From assembly GCA_013368515.1 (NCBI GenBank), contig JABWCI010000004.1, positions 1 through 64,000 of the forward strand: a DNA stretch of 64,000 nt. Reading direction: 5' to 3'. The notes below the pieces were generated by a model that worked only from the letters and a program-made list of their open reading frames with translations, had not been told where the DNA came from and did no database searches. This document shows, piece after piece, positions 35,864 to 44,689 of this stretch. Source of the DNA: Candidatus Altimarinota bacterium. GTDB taxonomy: Bacteria > Patescibacteriota > Gracilibacteria > BD1-5 > UBA6164. Made by a program: the position numbers and the translations under genes. Positions within the stretch are counted from its first letter, which is position 1. Each line of letters begins with the position of its first letter.

Positions 35864-35896
35864 TAAAAAGCTTAGATTAATCTAAGCTTTTTTTAT
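35864..35896. terminator. Bidirectional terminator
   Basis: AAAAAGCTTAGATT/AATCTAAGCTTTTT between convergent trxA and the pilC-like gene. Confidence 0.8.
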
Positions 35897-37029
35897 ATTA
35901 CATTTACCATGTTGAAAAATGGTAGCATTATAGCCATTATAAGAGTTCATATTATTCAACCAACTCAAACTATAACTAGAGGTTCTATTGCTGTTTGTAT
36001 ATTTTTTACTATTTCATCAATTTCTTTATTTGTTTTTATACTATATTTTATAAGTAGGTTTGATAAGTTTCAAGTTTCTTCTCATATTTTCACTACACTT
36101 GCAAGTTCTATAGGAAATAATGTATTTTCTTTTCAACTTTGAATTTCGTTTATTCACATTAGAACACTAAGTTCTATTCATTTACTTACTCTTGAAGTTA
36201 TTTCTTTTAATTCTTTTTCATAATAGTCATTTTCAAGTGCCTTTGAACTTATTTCTAAAGATTTATTAATTATTACTCAATTTTTTAATAATATTCATAA
36301 TCAAGAAGTAAATAATGCAAGTATTTTTTTTCTTATCAGTGGTCAGAAAATAGGTAATTTTATAATCATAATATCCCAATATATTTTTGTCTTTGGATTA
36401 GTTTTGAAAACTATAATTCAAAATATTAATATTATAATTCAAAAAACTATAATAATTATATTTTCTTGTAAAAATTTTGATGTATCAATTACATTTTGTG
36501 TTAAACTTGGTAGATTTACTTTAGAATCTTTATACATTTGCTCTATTTTTGGTATAACATATATCATAAAAACTCAAATCATGGCTATTGATAGAGTTAT
36601 TATAACCATAGGATAAATAAGTGCTCAAATTATTTTTGTTTTTAGTTCTCTAGCTTTCTCTTCTTTTAATTTTATAGTTTCTATTGAGTCACCAAGTTTT
36701 CAAGTAACTTCTCACATTTCAATTATTGATAAGTCAAAAGTATTAAATATATTTGGGAATAACTGAAAAGATTCTTTAAGATTATTTCAAGAATTTAGTC
36801 ATTCTATTATAGAATTTAATAATTTTTTATTATTTTTATTTCTAGTTTGGTACATTATTATTCTCAAACTATTTATAAGAGGTATTCAAGATTGTAATAA
36901 ATTAGATAATTGCTCTAAAAGATTTATTTTATCTTTTGAGCTTATTTTCATATTTAAAGTTTTTTCTCATTTTTTATCTGATTTAAACTTAAGTAAAATT
37001 AATTTTATTTTATCTAATAGATTATTCAT
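35893..37029 (-). CDS. Type IV pilus / type II secretion inner-membrane protein (PilC/GspF)
   Basis: 378 residues. Two copies of the GspF domain are seen. The first is LLEQLSNLLQSGIPLINSLRII...GNNLKESFQLFPNIFN...MIEMGEVTGKLGDSIETI; the second is LFTSGLGILLKNGVIINKSLEI...VVKIGEETGNLSNLL. Three membrane segments are present, and the end EPLVIVGVGGIIGTLIMAIMLPFF is characteristic. It forms the platform that works with PilB/PilT ATPases. No other pilus gene is in the window. It is divergent from the hsp20 gene. Confidence 0.93.
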
Positions 37030-37801: not shown

Positions 37802-38521
37802 ATGAAGATATTTTTAATTTTTGTTTTTTCATTTTTCTTTTATTGATCAGTATATTCTTGTAATGTTACTTCAAAAATAAATGAATGTAATGAGGCTTTA
37901 GCTCCTTTTAAAACAAAAGATTGATTTGTTTCACCTTGAGCTTCTATAAGAACTATACAAGATTTTGTTTGTTTACAAGATGTCCCAGAAGCTAGGATAT
38001 TTCAGATAATATTGGATGAAGAATTTAGAAAAATAGATGATGAAATGGATATTTATTTTGATAGTTTAACTAATTCTAAAAATTTTTATTTTTGAAAAGA
38101 AGCTCAATTTTCGTATTTTGATTGAATTAATCATATATGGGATAAATCTAGATATTTTAAAAATAAATTTACAAGTTCTTGTTGAGAAATAGTATCAAAA
38201 GTTGGTGCTTGTACTATAAATGATTCATATTTATTACCTTTAGAAAAACCAAGTGTATCAAATAATTTTGCTTTGGATTATTTAGAGTGATCTAAATGAG
38301 ATTGTTATAAATTAGTTGATATAAAAATGCAAATTTTTAATGATGTAGCTTTTAATATACTTCAATTAAATAAATCACAAGTTTCTAAAGATCAAAAGAA
38401 ATTATATGATCAAGAACAAAGAACAAAATATAATAAAGTAACTGATTTAATGATGATTAATTTATCTTATATAGAAAGGATTTGGATGAAATGGCCTAGT
38501 AAGATAAAAAATGCTTATTAA
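37802..38521 (+). CDS. Secreted hypothetical protein, 239 aa
   Basis: A signal peptide is clear (MKIFLIFVFSFFFYGSVYSC, cleavage near VYS-C; a lipobox is weak). The mature part has six or seven cysteines (CNVTSKINEC, DFVCLQD, SSCGEIVSKVGACT, GDCYKL), which suggests disulfides outside the cytoplasm. The C-terminal ~80 residues are helical with basic ends. I do not recognise it. It starts 1 nt after the small membrane protein, so it is in the hsp20 transcription unit, and a terminator follows. Confidence 0.68.
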
Positions 38522-38550
38522 AAAAGAAGAAGTTTTACTTCTTCTTTTCT
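38521..38550. terminator. Bidirectional terminator
   Basis: AAAAGAAGAAGT/ACTTCTTCTTTT between convergent genes. Confidence 0.75.
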
Positions 38551-39998
38551 TTTTGTTTTTCTCAGCAATAAGGACATATTTTCATATCTTTCTTTATGTA
38601 TTTTCCACAGTTATCACACTTTTTCTTTCTTTTTTTCTTAATTATAAAAAGTATAAACCATAATAATCAAAGTGATAGAATTAATCATAAGAAGAAATAT
38701 GGGTTGTATCATACATATTCAGTTTTATAATCTACATAAAAATCTTTTGCAGAATTAAATTCTATTTCTTCTCATTTGTAGTTTTTGTATGCAAGCTCTA
38801 TAATAGCATTAACTTTTTTTTGTTCTAGTTTTTCATTTACTCTTTGCCAAGGGAATAAAAAAGTTTTACTTTCTATATTTTTCTTAGTGTAATACTCAGA
38901 TGGAGTCCAGTATTTAATTATTTTTTTACCAGCTTCATCATAATCCTCATAAGGAAATCATTTCCATTCAGATTTAAATATTCTAGTTGTATTTGGTAAT
39001 ACATTTCATCCGTTATCATTTATAGGTATATAATCTACTATTTTTTCTCATATAGTTGTTCAAACTTCATTTTTAATAAGTTCTTTTCCAACTCATTTTA
39101 TTATTTCTCAGTTTTCATCAACTAAAGTTATCTTTCAATCAGGTTTAATATGTGTATTTCATTCATTATTAAATGGTATTTCAAATTCTATATTGAAGTC
39201 TAAATCAGTGCTTCAGCTTCAATTATTATTTCATTCTCAACTATTTCATTCTCAACTATTTCATTCTCAACTATTTCATTCATTATCATTATTATCATTT
39301 GTACTTCAAGTTCAGACTAAATTATCAATTATATTTCATAATCAGAAGTCATCTATACATTTTCAATCTATATTACTTTTTGTAAAATCTCATAATGGAC
39401 AACTATCTATTTTAATACCTCATCATGCATATGAAGTACTTCATCAACTAGAACTTCAAGGATTGATATTTGGTTCTCAAGGATTTCAATTATCTATAAC
39501 ATCTCAATCAACAGTTATAAGTAATAATACTCAGTAATCTACATTTATTTTTACTTGTCATCCTGCATTTACATTATCTTCTCAATAATTTTTGAAAAAA
39601 ACTGCTCAATAATGTCATCCAGGAGTAGCATCAACAGGCACATTTATAGTAAACTCTATATCTTTTTCTTCTAATGCTGCTAAACTTATAGTATTTGTAC
39701 TTATACTTATCCAACTAGCTAACTCTTGGTCTGGATTTACTAATTCACTTTTCCTAACAAATACTGGATTTCATGTAGTATCATTTGACATAAAATCAGA
39801 AACTCAAGTATGTAAAATCATAGGATTACTACTTTTGTTTATAAGTTTTGCGGTTCTTGTTGTAGTTGCTCAAGGGTTTAATTGTAACTCATATTTTATA
39901 GGAGACACTATTAAATCTACATCTACAGCACTAGTTTTAGTATTGTAAAATGAAATAAATAAAACAAAAACCATAATTAATTTTAAATATTTTCCCAT
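38535..39998 (-). CDS. DUF916-like (WxL-interacting protein-like) surface protein with zinc-ribbon tail
   Basis: 487 residues. A signal peptide (MGKYLKLIMVFVLFISFYNT) comes first. Next is an Ig-like domain, SPIKYELQLNPGATTTRTAKLINKSSNP...EKDIEFTINVPVDATPGGHYGAVFF, which follows the DUF916/WxLIP pattern. A Gly/Asn/Ser-rich low-complexity linker with NSGEG repeats (39231-39285) comes next, then another beta domain. A membrane helix near 445 (PYFFLGLILSLGLLWFILFII) precedes a cytoplasmic basic stretch and a CxxC...CxxC zinc ribbon (CDNCGKY, CPYCGEK). It is the last of three consecutive minus-strand surface genes. Confidence 0.65.
39231..39285 (-). repeat. Tandem 15-bp coding repeat (NSGEG)n
   Basis: Three full copies and part of a fourth of TCATTCTCAACTATT on the plus strand encode Asn-Ser-Gly-Glu-Gly on the minus strand, with both glycines as TGA. 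They are identical copies within a low-complexity linker, so copy number may vary. Confidence 0.85.
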
Positions 39999-40053
39999 TT
40001 TTTAATTTTTATTTTTTAAACAAAATCATTTTATTAAAAAATACTATAAAATC

Positions 40054-40085
40054 AAAAAAAAGACTAAAAACTAGTCTTTTTTTAT
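40054..40085 (-). terminator. Terminator after the 225-aa surface protein gene
   Basis: AAAAAGACTA/TAGTCTTTTT with long A and T tracts. Confidence 0.75.
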
Positions 40086-40096
40086 TTTACTTTTTA

Positions 40097-40774
40097 TTAG
40101 AAGTTACCAGTAACTGTAAATGTAATTACGTCTTGGTAAGATCCAGCTTGAGTTTGAGCATCTGATGTAGCAGCAACTGTAAAAGTAACGTCTGCAGCAG
40201 CACCATCAAATCTTTCTGGTTTATTTGTAGTATAAATTACATGTTCAGTACTATTACTATTTACTTGAGTAGTAGCTAAATCACCAGTAGTTGTAAATCC
40301 TGAAACAGTTGAGTCAATAGCATTAGCTGTTGAAGCAAAAGTATAAGATTCAGCAATACCATCAGTAGTTAAGTTATTGATTTGTATAGCATTGTCATCA
40401 ACATTAGTTAATCATCCACTTCCTGATCTAGCTGTAATAGTAACACCATCAGCAGCATTTGTTCCAACTTCAATATTTACTGTTCCTGAAGCAGGAGTAC
40501 CAGCAATTAATGTTCCTAAGTTAATAGTAGAAGTAGATAAAGTCATATTTAAACTTGGTAGAACTTGTGCAGTTACAGTAACACCTGTAACAGAACCACT
40601 AGCTGTACCAGGGAAATTGTTATCCCAAACGATATTTTGAGTTAACCCAGGAGCACCAGTAACAGTTGCAGTACCAATATTAGTAGCATAAACTGAACTT
40701 AAATTTGTTGCAGCAATACCTGCAATAGAAGCTAAAGCAATAGCTTTTTTTATTTTTGTTTTTAACATAAACAC
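40097..40774 (-). CDS. Abundant secreted surface protein (small WxL-like)
   Basis: 225 residues from ATG 40774 (ATG 40768 is also possible). A signal peptide (KKAIALASIAGIAATNLSSVYA) precedes an all-beta Ala/Thr/Val/Gly-rich protein: INLGTLIAGTPASGTVNIEV, then DGVTITARSGSG, ending AGSYQDVITFTVTGNF. The same pattern (INIGNIS...AGSYLGNIKFSLELDY) forms the C-terminal domain of the 963-residue protein just upstream, so they share a domain. Only one of its ~19 glycines is TGA, against most in neighbouring genes, pointing to very high expression. It has its own strong promoter and terminator. It may form a surface layer or bind the wall. Confidence 0.75.
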
Positions 40775-40849
40775 AAATTATGAAATAATAAAATATTTTT
40801 TGCTAGCAAATATAAAAAGTTTGTTTTTAACTTTCTATCAAGCATTATT

Positions 40850-40879
40850 ATTGTAACATATTTAAAAAACTTTTGTCAA
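40850..40879 (-). promoter_or_regulatory. Strong sigma70-type promoter for the 225-aa surface protein
   Basis: On the minus strand TTGACA (40879-40874) and TACAAT (40855-40850) are separated by 18 nt, 76 nt upstream of the start codon. The -35 abuts the terminator of the upstream gene. Confidence 0.7.
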
Positions 40880-40912
40880 AAAAATAAGCACTTTTTTTGT
40901 GCTTATTTTTTA
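40878..40912 (-). terminator. Terminator after the CBM2-domain surface gene
   Basis: AAAAATAAGCAC/GTGCTTATTTTT with a T7 loop. It overlaps the gene's TAA. Confidence 0.8.
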
Positions 40913-43801
40913 ATAATCTAATTCTAAACTAAATTTTATATTTCATAAATAGCTTCCTGCTACCTGTTCTTGGGTTATATTCGTTCATAATCTTATAGTA
41001 TAAATATATGTATTTTTTTCTCAAGAAGTATTTAGATTTGTAGCTTGAGTAGCAATTATTTCATTATTATTTATCAAATTTATATTATTTGTAAATGGAG
41101 TTTTTTCATATCAAACTCAATTTACTCAATTCCAATTTTGTATTTGTATAGAATTATGTGTTAGATTTCAATCTTTATTTAATATTAAATTAAAAGGAGT
41201 TCAAACTGTTCTAACGGTTAATATTACATTTGGGCTAAAATTATTTACTCAAGGGGTTGAGATATTTCATATATTTATATTTCAAGTAGATACATTTAGT
41301 TCAGGCTCATCTATATAAAACTCTCTTTCTCTGAAATTACCATTTCAAGCATTATCTTGTATATAAAAATATATTTTGTATCTTCAATATCATAAAGCAT
41401 TTAAATTATAATTTGCTGTTGTTAGATTTGCAGTATTTGAATTTATAAAACTAGAAGCTATATTTGGTCACCATGAGCTTCAGTTCCATTTTCTTAGTTC
41501 AAAAACTCTACTAGAAGAATTTATTCAAGAATCACTATCATTATAATTTATAGTTACATTTAAACTTGCATTTGGATATATTATATTATTTCAAGGAAAT
41601 ACTATGTTTATATTTGGTGTAGTAGAGTCTGAAGGACCAGTTCAAATATTAAATATTACTGTTATAGATCACATATTTCAACTACTATCAGAAATATTAA
41701 ATACAACTTTATATCTTCATATTGTAATATTATTAGATGGATACAATGCTTGAGTTTGGCTAATAACTTTAGATGTTTTAAATATTTTTGAGTTAGATAT
41801 ATCACTTCACCAGTTAAATCAATCCCATTTATATAGATAAATATTATCAGAATTTGTATTTATTCATATATTGTCTGAATAATTAAATATAAAATTGAAA
41901 TTTCAATTTGTTATATATTGTTCATTTGTAGGAGTATTTGAATTTATAATTGGAGGATTACTATCAGAACTTCATATATTTATTGTTCAGAAACTCCATT
42001 GATTATCTACATTTACTCAATTAGTACAAAATCATACATTTGTTGTTGCTCATGGTAGTAGTTGCTGATTCCAAGATAGCGGATTTATGGTAAAGGTTAC
42101 TCAATTCTTATTAAAAGTTGCTGAACTAGTAGAGTTTATCTCTTGATCCAATTCAAAAAATAGTTGCCAATTATTTATTGTAGAACTTCATATATTTGTT
42201 AGTAATATATTTCTACAATATCATCAATTCCATTCTGAACTTGTTGTAATATTTGCTCTCAATCAATTTTGCTCTATTGTATAGTTTTGCAAATTTCATC
42301 AAGATACTGGTGTAAAGCTTTTTAAATGCAAATTTGATACTATTCAATTTCAGCTTCAGCAAAATCATATTTCTATATTTTCTCAAGGTGATAGTTTGTC
42401 TGTTGATATTGAGTTTGATCTTACTTCATATTGATTTGATACATTTGAAAAATTTCAGTTCCAACTGCTAGTTATAATTCAGTTATCTAGTTGAAATCAT
42501 ATAACCCGATTAGTTATATCATTTGTTGATGTATTTTGAATATTAAAACTATAACAGAATCAAGTTCCCCAATTGTTATTTGTTATAGTTGTAATAGTTA
42601 TAGGAGCAGGAGCAACAGCAACTTGTTGAGATATGGTTGCTGAATTATTTGTTGTATTACTATCTCAAGAATTACTTAAGCTCGTTGAGAAATTTACTGT
42701 TGTTCATCAAGCTGCAGATAATGGCTTTAATGGTATTTGTAAAGTATCAACTCATCATAAAGAAGATATATTTATAGTCTTTGTACAAGTAACAGTAGTT
42801 CAAACTACTGCACCACAATTCCATCAATTTGTAGTAAAGGTACTTGTAGGTCAAGTAAAATTATTAGGTATTGTGAAGTTTACAGTCGTATTTCAAGTAG
42901 CATTTATAGTTCAAGCATTTATTATATTTATAGTAATTAGTGAGTTTTGTCATACAGTTAGAGTTGGTTCTGGTTGTCAAATACTAGGATATATATCGTA
43001 AGTAGGAGTGTTTACAAAAGGAAGCATTCTCCATTCATTTGCTCATTCATAAACTATTCATCAAGCAGTTCAAAAATTCCGATTTATACCATATCATAAA
43101 TCTCAAGCAGTTGATTGAATTGTTCAATTATAATTTTGATTATTATTTATTCTTGTAAGCATATTTCAATATGCGGAAGCCTCATATCATGACCAAATTG
43201 GTCAATTTATATATCTTTGAGCAGATAATACATTTGCATTATTGTCGTATATTCATGCCGTTTGGCTAGGGTTATTATTGTAATATCAAACATCTCAAGA
43301 ATCTCATCAAGCAACATATGAGTCCATTGAAAAATAAAACCTTATGTTCCTAGTATTTCAATTAGGTATTTCAACTCTATATCTCCAAGTAAAGTAAGCA
43401 TTTGGAGCTGTATATTCCCGGTCTATTATAACTCTATATGTTCTTCATCAAGTATTATATGTTAGAGTTGTTGTTGCATTATATGTATTACCATTTTGAC
43501 TTCAAGATGTCGTTGCACTTGTCCAGTTAGTTCATCATTTTCATACTCTAGTATTTCATATGCTTAATCTTACATAATGGTTTGGTCATGAATTTCAAGT
43601 TGCTCAAGGATTTCATCCATAGTTTTGGGCAAGTCATTTATAGTAAACTTGTGTTTGTCACCAATCTCATATTATTATTCTTAAATCATTTGAATTAGCT
43701 GTTCATCATACTGGATTCATAGTATAAAAAGCAGCATCTGTTTTTGTTATAAATGTTATCAAAAATGATAATAAAATTAAGATTTTTATTACATATTTCA
43801 T
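40910..43801 (-). CDS. Large secreted adhesin-like protein with two CBM2-like domains and a WxL-like C-terminus
   Basis: 963 residues. The signal peptide is MKYVIKILILLSFLITFITK. Domains by approximate residue: an aromatic, Gly/Asn-rich N-module (26-270); a DUF11-like Ig domain (274-390; PTLTVGQNSLITINIINAG); CBM2-like 1 (409-505; WGTGFCYSFNIQNTS, ending IEIGFCGSG); CBM2-like 2 (521-612; WNGGYCRNILLTNIGSS, ending TNVGFCTNG); two Ig-like repeats (615-720, 725-825; GRYKVVFNISDSSGN and GRYKIYFYIQDNAGN); and a C-terminal domain (830-963) matching the 225-residue neighbour. Each CBM2 has the terminal Cys pair and surface Trp. CBM2 binds cellulose or chitin, which suggests adhesion to a glycan. No catalytic domain is seen. 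Confidence 0.75.
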
Positions 43802-43873
43802 AAAACTCTTGTATTTATTATTTTATAAATTATATTAAGTATAATAAAAATCTATTAAATTAAAAATCTTTTT

Positions 43874-44689
43874 ATGAGTTTAGAAATACTTAAAAAATAC
43901 AATATAAAAGCTAAAAAATCTCTAGGTCAAAATTTCTTAGTTAATGATAAAATAGTAAAAGATATCTCAGATGTTATAGAAGTTTTATCAAAAAATATAG
44001 TTGAAGTAGGGCCAGGTTATGGTGCTTTGACTGAAAAACTTTTGTTAAAAAAACCAAAAAGTCTTAATTTAGTCGAGCTTGATTTAGATATGATTGATAT
44101 ATTAAATAAAAGAATCAATTCTTGAGACTTTAATTTAAATTGAATTGATTTTAAAATAAATAATTGTGATGTTTTAAAATATATACCTGAAAATAAAGAT
44201 TATAGTGTTATAGCAAATATACCTTATTATATTACAAGTCCTATTTTGAGACATTTTTTATATGATGTAGAAAATAAACCTGAGTCTATGGTTATACTTA
44301 TGCAAAAAGATGTTTGAGATAAGATATTGTGAAAAGGTAAAGAAAAAACATCAGTTTTATCACTTTTTGTTTCTAAAAAATGTATAGTTAGAGAGGTTTT
44401 ATTTGTTTGAAAAGAAAATTTTATCCCAGCTCCAAAAGTAGAGTCTAGTGTTTTACTTTTTGAAAGTCATCATTTATACAATGATATAGATGATAATTTA
44501 TTTATGGATTTTATAAAAAAATCTTTTAGAGAACCAAGAAAAAAATTATCTAAAAATCTTGTAAATGCTTGATATGATAAAAACTTAATTATGCAAATTT
44601 TTTCTAAACTTTCAATACAAGATTTAGTAAGATGAGAAGATTTAAATATGACAATTTGGAGCCAATTATTTTTAGAATTTAACAAATAG
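43874..44689 (+). CDS. ksgA: 16S rRNA adenine dimethyltransferase KsgA
   Basis: 271 residues. The start KKSLGQNFLVNDKIV is diagnostic. It has motif I VEVGPGYGALT (~44-54), the acidic VELD and the catalytic NIPYYITSPIL. The C-terminal helical domain ends FREPRKKLSKNL. It dimethylates two adjacent adenines in helix 45 of 16S rRNA. Divergent from the surface locus. Ends in TAG. Confidence 0.97.

Follow-up and report, generated by a model that had tools for sequence, protein, structure and literature searches.

How Patescibacteria recognize their hosts and hold on to them is an open question, for which attention has rested mostly on type IV pili. A stretch of 64,000 nucleotides from Candidatus Altimarinota bacterium (assembly GCA_013368515.1, contig JABWCI010000004.1, positions 1 to 64,000; the window in what follows), which comes from a tiny, probably host-dependent organism, raises this question through three adjacent genes at 43801–38535 on the minus strand. 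In order of transcription they encode proteins of 963, 223 and 487 amino acids (aa), hereafter the large, small and DUF916 proteins. What would such a locus build? The answer that we favor, with moderate confidence, is a thin adhesive fiber assembled by donor-strand exchange, in which no outer-membrane usher takes part. Its rod subunit would be the small protein, an incomplete immunoglobulin (Ig)-type sandwich whose N-terminal extension fills in the subunit that follows. The large protein would be a FimH-like tip, in which an N-terminal head, CBM2 domains and Ig domains sit on a C-terminal domain that accepts a strand and has no extension to give, and the DUF916/WxLIP protein in the cytoplasmic membrane would act as chaperone and anchor, lending a strand to fresh subunits and holding the base of the fiber. 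In outline the trio would be kin to a surface-protein cluster of gut bacteria while having the predicted fold of E. coli fimbriae. Gene structure, synteny, remote homology, predicted folds and expression signs are computed results, from which the missing strand, strand exchange, polymerization, the chaperone role and glycan binding are inferred. The features on which the argument draws are the following, in window positions.

40910–43801, minus strand: large secreted protein, an open reading frame (ORF) under genetic code 25 of 963 aa with a signal peptide; proposed tip adhesin
40913–41359, minus strand: stretch of the large gene taken for structure modeling, residues 815–963, the C-terminal domain without an N-terminal extension
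40880–40912, minus strand: terminator hairpin behind the large gene, AATAAGCAC-loop-GTGCTTATT followed by a T-run; fold of -9.0 kcal/mol
40850–40879, minus strand: extended -10 promoter of the small gene, TTGACA-18-TACAAT with TG, 11/12 matches
40097–40768, minus strand: small secreted protein, ATG at 40768 and stop at 40097, 223 aa with a signal peptide; proposed major rod subunit
40055–40086, minus strand: terminator hairpin between the small and DUF916 genes, AAAAAGACTA-loop-TAGTCTTTTT, -9.8 kcal/mol
38535–39998, minus strand: membrane-anchored DUF916/WxLIP_PGBD protein, 487 aa; proposed strand-donating chaperone and base anchor

Only code 25, in which TGA encodes glycine, leaves the three genes open; table 11 breaks them into fragments. 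A listed GTG start of the small gene at 40774 lies two codons upstream of the ATG. An earlier sequence-only reading of this DNA had described a large secreted, a small secreted and a membrane-bound DUF916-like protein side by side, and this arrangement holds with exact positions. Its placement of the source in the Absconditabacteria is wrong, the nearest named genomes being Candidatus Gracilibacteria.

Remote relation and predicted folds of the C-terminal domains

That the two secreted proteins carry the same C-terminal domain, as had been claimed, finds no support in BLASTP, which gives no match between small and large protein, and is supported by profiles, by a C-terminal signature and by the predicted fold. 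In profile-profile comparisons, for which reversed and block-shuffled profiles served as controls, the small family matches Pam_pilin_C, a pilin domain family of the candidate phyla radiation (CPR), with E values of 5e-6 (local) and 1.5e-7 (global), the best control reaching 0.0023 (global). The large family matches the same pilins at 1.9e-5 (global; best control 0.006). The relation between small and large protein runs in part via a third family, the Pam pilin. All three families also share a glycine placed exactly 14 positions ahead of a terminal aromatic residue, which is present in 37/44 small, 35/36 large and 20/20 Pam sequences and in 6/658 ORFs of the genome. For chaperone-usher pilins, too, a C-terminal glycine together with a tyrosine in the penultimate position has been described. 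Sequence searches of the PDB with the small and large profiles returned chance matches only.

The predicted structures extend this relation. AlphaFold2 models residues 815–963 of the large protein with a pLDDT of 90.5 and the whole small protein with 81.8, the latter composed of values below 70 for residues 1–60 and of about 90–98 for most of residues 61–223. With the large-protein domain as query, 48 of the 50 top Foldseek rows are chaperone-usher pilins (FimG, FimF, FimA, CsuA/B, PapA and PapG chains), the best being FimG (3jwn_G, 5.4e-4), and VIA gives a Z of 8.5 against CsuA/B (6fqa_D). For the small protein, the top of the Foldseek results consists of a CLIPPER domain, Csu and Fim pilins and TasA, with the TasA fiber 8aur at rank 3; over the structure searches the matches are Csu, Fim, Pap and CfaE/CfaB pilins together with TasA, and the VIA rows, with Z up to 8.4, include cannulae. 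The two models were made independently and have most of their best matches in common. Unrelated folds, which would speak against a shared domain, did not appear; both C-terminal domains are predicted to be pilin-like and, as modeled, are best matched by donor-strand pilins (FimG, CsuA/B, PapG, CfaE). Since the matched chaperone-usher pilins and TasA are donor-strand assemblies, a missing strand is suggested here as well. WxL or DUF916 folds are not among the structure-search matches, which is no evidence of their absence.

Extension and expression signals of the small protein

The small protein consists of a conserved N-terminal extension at about residues 30–61 and the pilin-like domain at 62–223. 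No Pfam family scores above cut-off; a match to PF07479 (16.6 bits, cut-off 25) was taken as chance. Conservation over residues 30–61 equals or exceeds that of the fold itself (entropy 1.21 vs 1.36), and a counterpart of this extension was not found in the C-terminal domain of the large protein. An extension in the small protein and none in the large one is the pattern that would be expected if rod subunits donate a strand and tip subunits only receive one.

The gene also bears marks of strong expression. One of its 21 glycine codons is TGA (0.05), the lowest share among the 54 window ORFs of at least 100 aa with enough glycines, whose median is 0.84, and lower than that of rpsB, rpsA and tsf; in the two neighboring genes, 91/99 and 44/52 glycine codons are TGA. 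The contrast between small and DUF916 gene is the same in all 17 of the 17 loci in which both could be counted. In the same-genus genome G005, ranked over 800 kb from one contig (C3), the homologue of the small gene is third of 574 in TGA avoidance, beside rpsB, tsf and rpsA, and a type IV pilin-like gene, sixth of the 574, avoids TGA too. The TGA share of glycine codons seems to set translation genes (rpsB, rpsA and tsf, all low) apart from others, and it may be usable as an expression index for code-25 genomes.

The promoter of the small gene is the best on either strand within 38300–44000. Promoter-like sites overall are no more frequent in this region than chance predicts (38 found, 46.5 expected), and therefore it is conservation rather than the match as such that is the evidence for this promoter: it is kept in 19/22 homologous loci as TTGACA or TTGACT, a spacing of 17–18 bp and a TG-extended -10. 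Likewise, most homologous loci have a strong hairpin with a T-run at the junction of the small and DUF916 genes. An operon model was dropped, and separate transcription units are preferred. Taken with TGA avoidance and the conserved, unfolded extension, the gene's own promoter and terminator make the small protein look like a major subunit.

An abundant small protein might instead form a two-dimensional surface coat into which large proteins are inserted, and the predicted very high expression would suit such a layer, as would the presence of one or two small genes per locus in relatives and of further large-type genes elsewhere in their genomes. However, the single small domain resembles fiber subunits, and an extension that is kept in the small protein and absent from the large one suits a linear chain, so that we regard a coat as improbable.

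Conservation of the locus and the variable large protein

Homologues of the DUF916 protein are found in 77/118 related genomes and those of the small protein in 56/118. Among 35 loci of relatives, the DUF916 gene directly follows the small gene in 30, and in 17 the small gene is immediately preceded by a large gene that has the shared C-terminus. The DUF916 gene was not seen in L148, L154, L155, L161 and L163, some of which are cut by a contig end. The synteny proposed as a check of the sequence-only reading is therefore present: the large/small/DUF916 organization recurs in relatives, and the lack of synteny that would have counted against it was not encountered. Four same-genus genomes (G001, G002, G003 and G005) keep the pair of small and DUF916 genes in place, but the large gene is absent there and the small gene adjoins rsmA. 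The pair is therefore the core, and the large protein varies.

Could these be three independent surface proteins that stand side by side by chance and end in a generic Ig-type domain? The absence of the large gene from the syntenic locus of these four genomes, and the transcription signals that each gene seems to have of its own, would be in keeping with this. Yet the recurrent order (17/35 for the large and 30/35 for the DUF916 gene) and the C-terminal signature in common leave a chance neighborhood hardly credible.

In the large protein, an N-terminal region of about 380 aa is without any Pfam family and is followed by CBM2 domains at about 402–494 and 516–598, Ig-type repeats at about 617–815 and the C-terminal pilin-like domain at about 830–963. 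CBM_2 (78.4 bits against a cut-off of 24, 5.6e-22, two stretches) is the only Pfam family above cut-off. The two CBM2-like and several Ig domains of the sequence-only reading are thus confirmed. Matches in the PDB are the ChiC chitin-binding domain 2rtt (4.8e-7) and the Cellulomonas-type CBM2 1exg, and some tryptophans are retained, such as W411 and W447 of the first module and W524 and W577 of the second. A beta-1,4-glycan would be our guess for the ligand that such a tip might bind. Because secreted CBM2 and Ig domains build a large protein that varies among species, the attachment role that had been proposed for the locus is still plausible.

Where the relatives' loci have a large gene whose frame is not cut by an end, the protein measures between 785 and 2535 aa. 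Over its N-terminal 400 residues, the window's protein shares 45–54% identity with large proteins from a different family within the order, whereas genus-mates match only its C-terminal part; this suggests an exchange of heads. Large-type matches outnumber small genes in many relatives. In the source genome itself, another contig, C27 (L114:6467-9904, minus strand), encodes a second large-type protein (1145 aa) that ends in a similar C-terminus, with neither a small nor a DUF916 gene alongside; it is a possible alternative tip, and G001 has a protein like it.

The DUF916 protein and known surface systems

The DUF916 protein scores above the Pfam cut-offs for WxLIP_PGBD (30.9 bits against 27.3) and Zn_ribbon_3 (30.2 bits). 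In order, it comprises a secreted Ig-type domain (36–136), a low-complexity linker, a second domain (about 265–430), one transmembrane (TM) helix near 433–452, the string KKKRKKK and a zinc ribbon (458–481). On the basis of the helix and the positive charges after it, the positive-inside rule places the ribbon in the cytoplasm and the DUF916 part outside, anchored in the bacterium's own membrane. This differs from a published proposal for WxLIP, in which the helix enters the host membrane (PMC10599100). In AlphaFold2 complexes of Firmicutes proteins, a DUF916 strand fills a gap in WxL and completes its sandwich (PMC10599100), which, by analogy, would be the act of a donor-strand chaperone; in Bacillus, TapA primes TasA fibers by strand complementation (PMC10151520).

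With WxL/WxLIP clusters of Lactobacillales and Bacillales the locus has in common a large, a small and a DUF916 membrane protein in one cluster and a shared C-terminal domain; WxLIP_PGBD with a TM helix and the adjacency of the three genes are both found here. Unlike those clusters, it has no dual W-x-L motif and no PF13731 match, DUF3324 was not detected by Pfam up to E 1, the NQIDKxxxYFDLK motif is not seen here, and the small gene is, by its sequence signs, separately and strongly expressed. Across the three proteins a W-x-L string occurs once, as WQL at residue 545 of the large one, within a CBM2, so that the absence of the motif from the shared domain was correctly noted before. PF13731 is found neither in the source genome, with a Lactococcus control detected, nor by hmmscan of the proteins up to E 1. 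The organization is common to both, the defining motif is not.

These comparisons bear on a WxL-type wall platform, in which the shared domain ties the small and large proteins to peptidoglycan, the DUF916 protein stabilizes these two and the CBM2 part projects outward with no polymer formed. Such a platform can claim the gene content of the Firmicutes clusters (PMC10599100), the WxLIP_PGBD score and a profile match of 2.9e-5 that links Pam pilins to weak WxL hits from Patescibacteria. Against it stand the lack of any WxL Pfam hit in the source genome and of a dual W-x-L, a weak match of the small family to WxL-type sequences (0.002, local), and codon bias, promoter and terminator, which point to a small protein far more abundant than its partners. 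Wall anchoring through the shared domain, as the sequence-only reading had it, is therefore not supported: the fold, the N-terminal extension and the predicted abundance suit a polymerizing pilin better than a one-to-one anchor. We consider the platform, the main rival of the fiber, less likely, although a fiber may also fit WxL proteins, so that the two are not fully exclusive. Anchoring by sortase was rejected because the subunits have no sorting signals (their last 60 residues hold no LPxTG-like motif); a sortase gene is present elsewhere in the source genome.

Among pili, the nearest relative appears to be the Pam pilus of CPR/Patescibacteria, defined by NCBIfam models (NF058578 PamR, NF058579 PamT, NF058581 Pam_pilin_C); among the papers searched, none was found that describes it. 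Likeness lies in the full-length profile relation of the pilin-like domain, in the Gly/aromatic signature and in a DUF916-type gene that often lies directly downstream of Pam pilins. Unlike the Pam pilus, the window locus has a CBM2 tip of its own. In 240 sampled Patescibacteria genomes, WxLIP_PGBD occurs in 74, Pam_pilin_C in 61 and WxL in 9, and of the 94 Pam hits listed, the weakest left out, 37 are followed on the same strand by a WxLIP_PGBD hit within 1.5 kb, mostly at 116–330 bp. In G109, of the same class, a Pam pilin above cut-off lies next to a homologue of P0003. NF058581 has no HMM match in the source genome, and profile comparison would make the locus distant kin of the Pam pilus that stays under the cut-off of its model.

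Chaperone-usher pili (type 1, P, CFA/I and the archaic Csu) resemble the locus in the predicted fold of both subunit domains, in the N-terminal extension, here on the proposed rod subunit, and in a tip that joins an adhesin head to a C-terminal pilin domain without extension, as proposed for the large protein. The usher family PF00577 is found in 0/21 genomes, with an E. coli control detected, and a Pfam scan of the three proteins shows no PapD or fimbrial match; the candidate chaperone here is instead the membrane-anchored DUF916 protein. TasA/TapA of Bacillus is a monoderm's donor-strand fiber, for which an Ig-fold partner gives the strand (PMC10151520), with a different gene content and, by Pfam or PDB search, no sequence relation. 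As modeled, the locus would work like a chaperone-usher or TasA-type fiber, and by the tests made it belongs to neither.

Several observations weigh against a donor-strand pilus. Compared directly, small and large families match weakly, at 3e-4 over 26 residues (local) and 8e-4 (global), with controls at 0.0014 (local) and 0.031 (global), so that the local value is only modestly better than its control. The missing strand is suggested by single-domain models, and VIA Z values of 7–8.5 can, by the tool's own note, be reached by a common Ig-type arrangement. Pam_pilin_C scores 13.3 bits on the small protein against a cut-off of 55, and the PamR and PamT models match none of the three proteins. 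TGA avoidance is a proxy for expression. Finally, the second domain of the DUF916 protein has no Pfam match up to E 1, DUF3324 included, and may serve another function.

If the donor-strand pilus is correct, a second, usher-less fiber whose rod is abundant and whose tip can change would stand as a direct candidate for recognizing and holding the host. DUF916/WxLIP, now described as peptidoglycan- and host-binding, would gain another job, and the strand with which it completes WxL in published models would be explained. More tentatively, WxL domains, Pam pilins and the present family may form one donor-strand superfamily with DUF916/WxLIP as its membrane chaperone, a class of usher-less pili with exchangeable tip adhesins in Patescibacteria and in the WxL clusters of Firmicutes. 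Among the Patescibacteria loci L165–L172, some (L170, L172 and others) encode, a short distance from a DUF916-type gene, proteins that come near the WxL Pfam model, a possible link between WxL and Pam families.

Two further genes lie beyond the DUF916 gene. Convergent with it, at 37802–38521 on the plus strand, is a gene for a secreted protein of 239 aa without an assigned function, whose relatives (226–253 aa, many ending in ...WPSKIKNAY/AL) are found at the same place in many related genomes. A PilC-like type IV pilus protein is encoded at 35893–37029 on the minus strand, and the cell therefore probably has a second kind of pilus.

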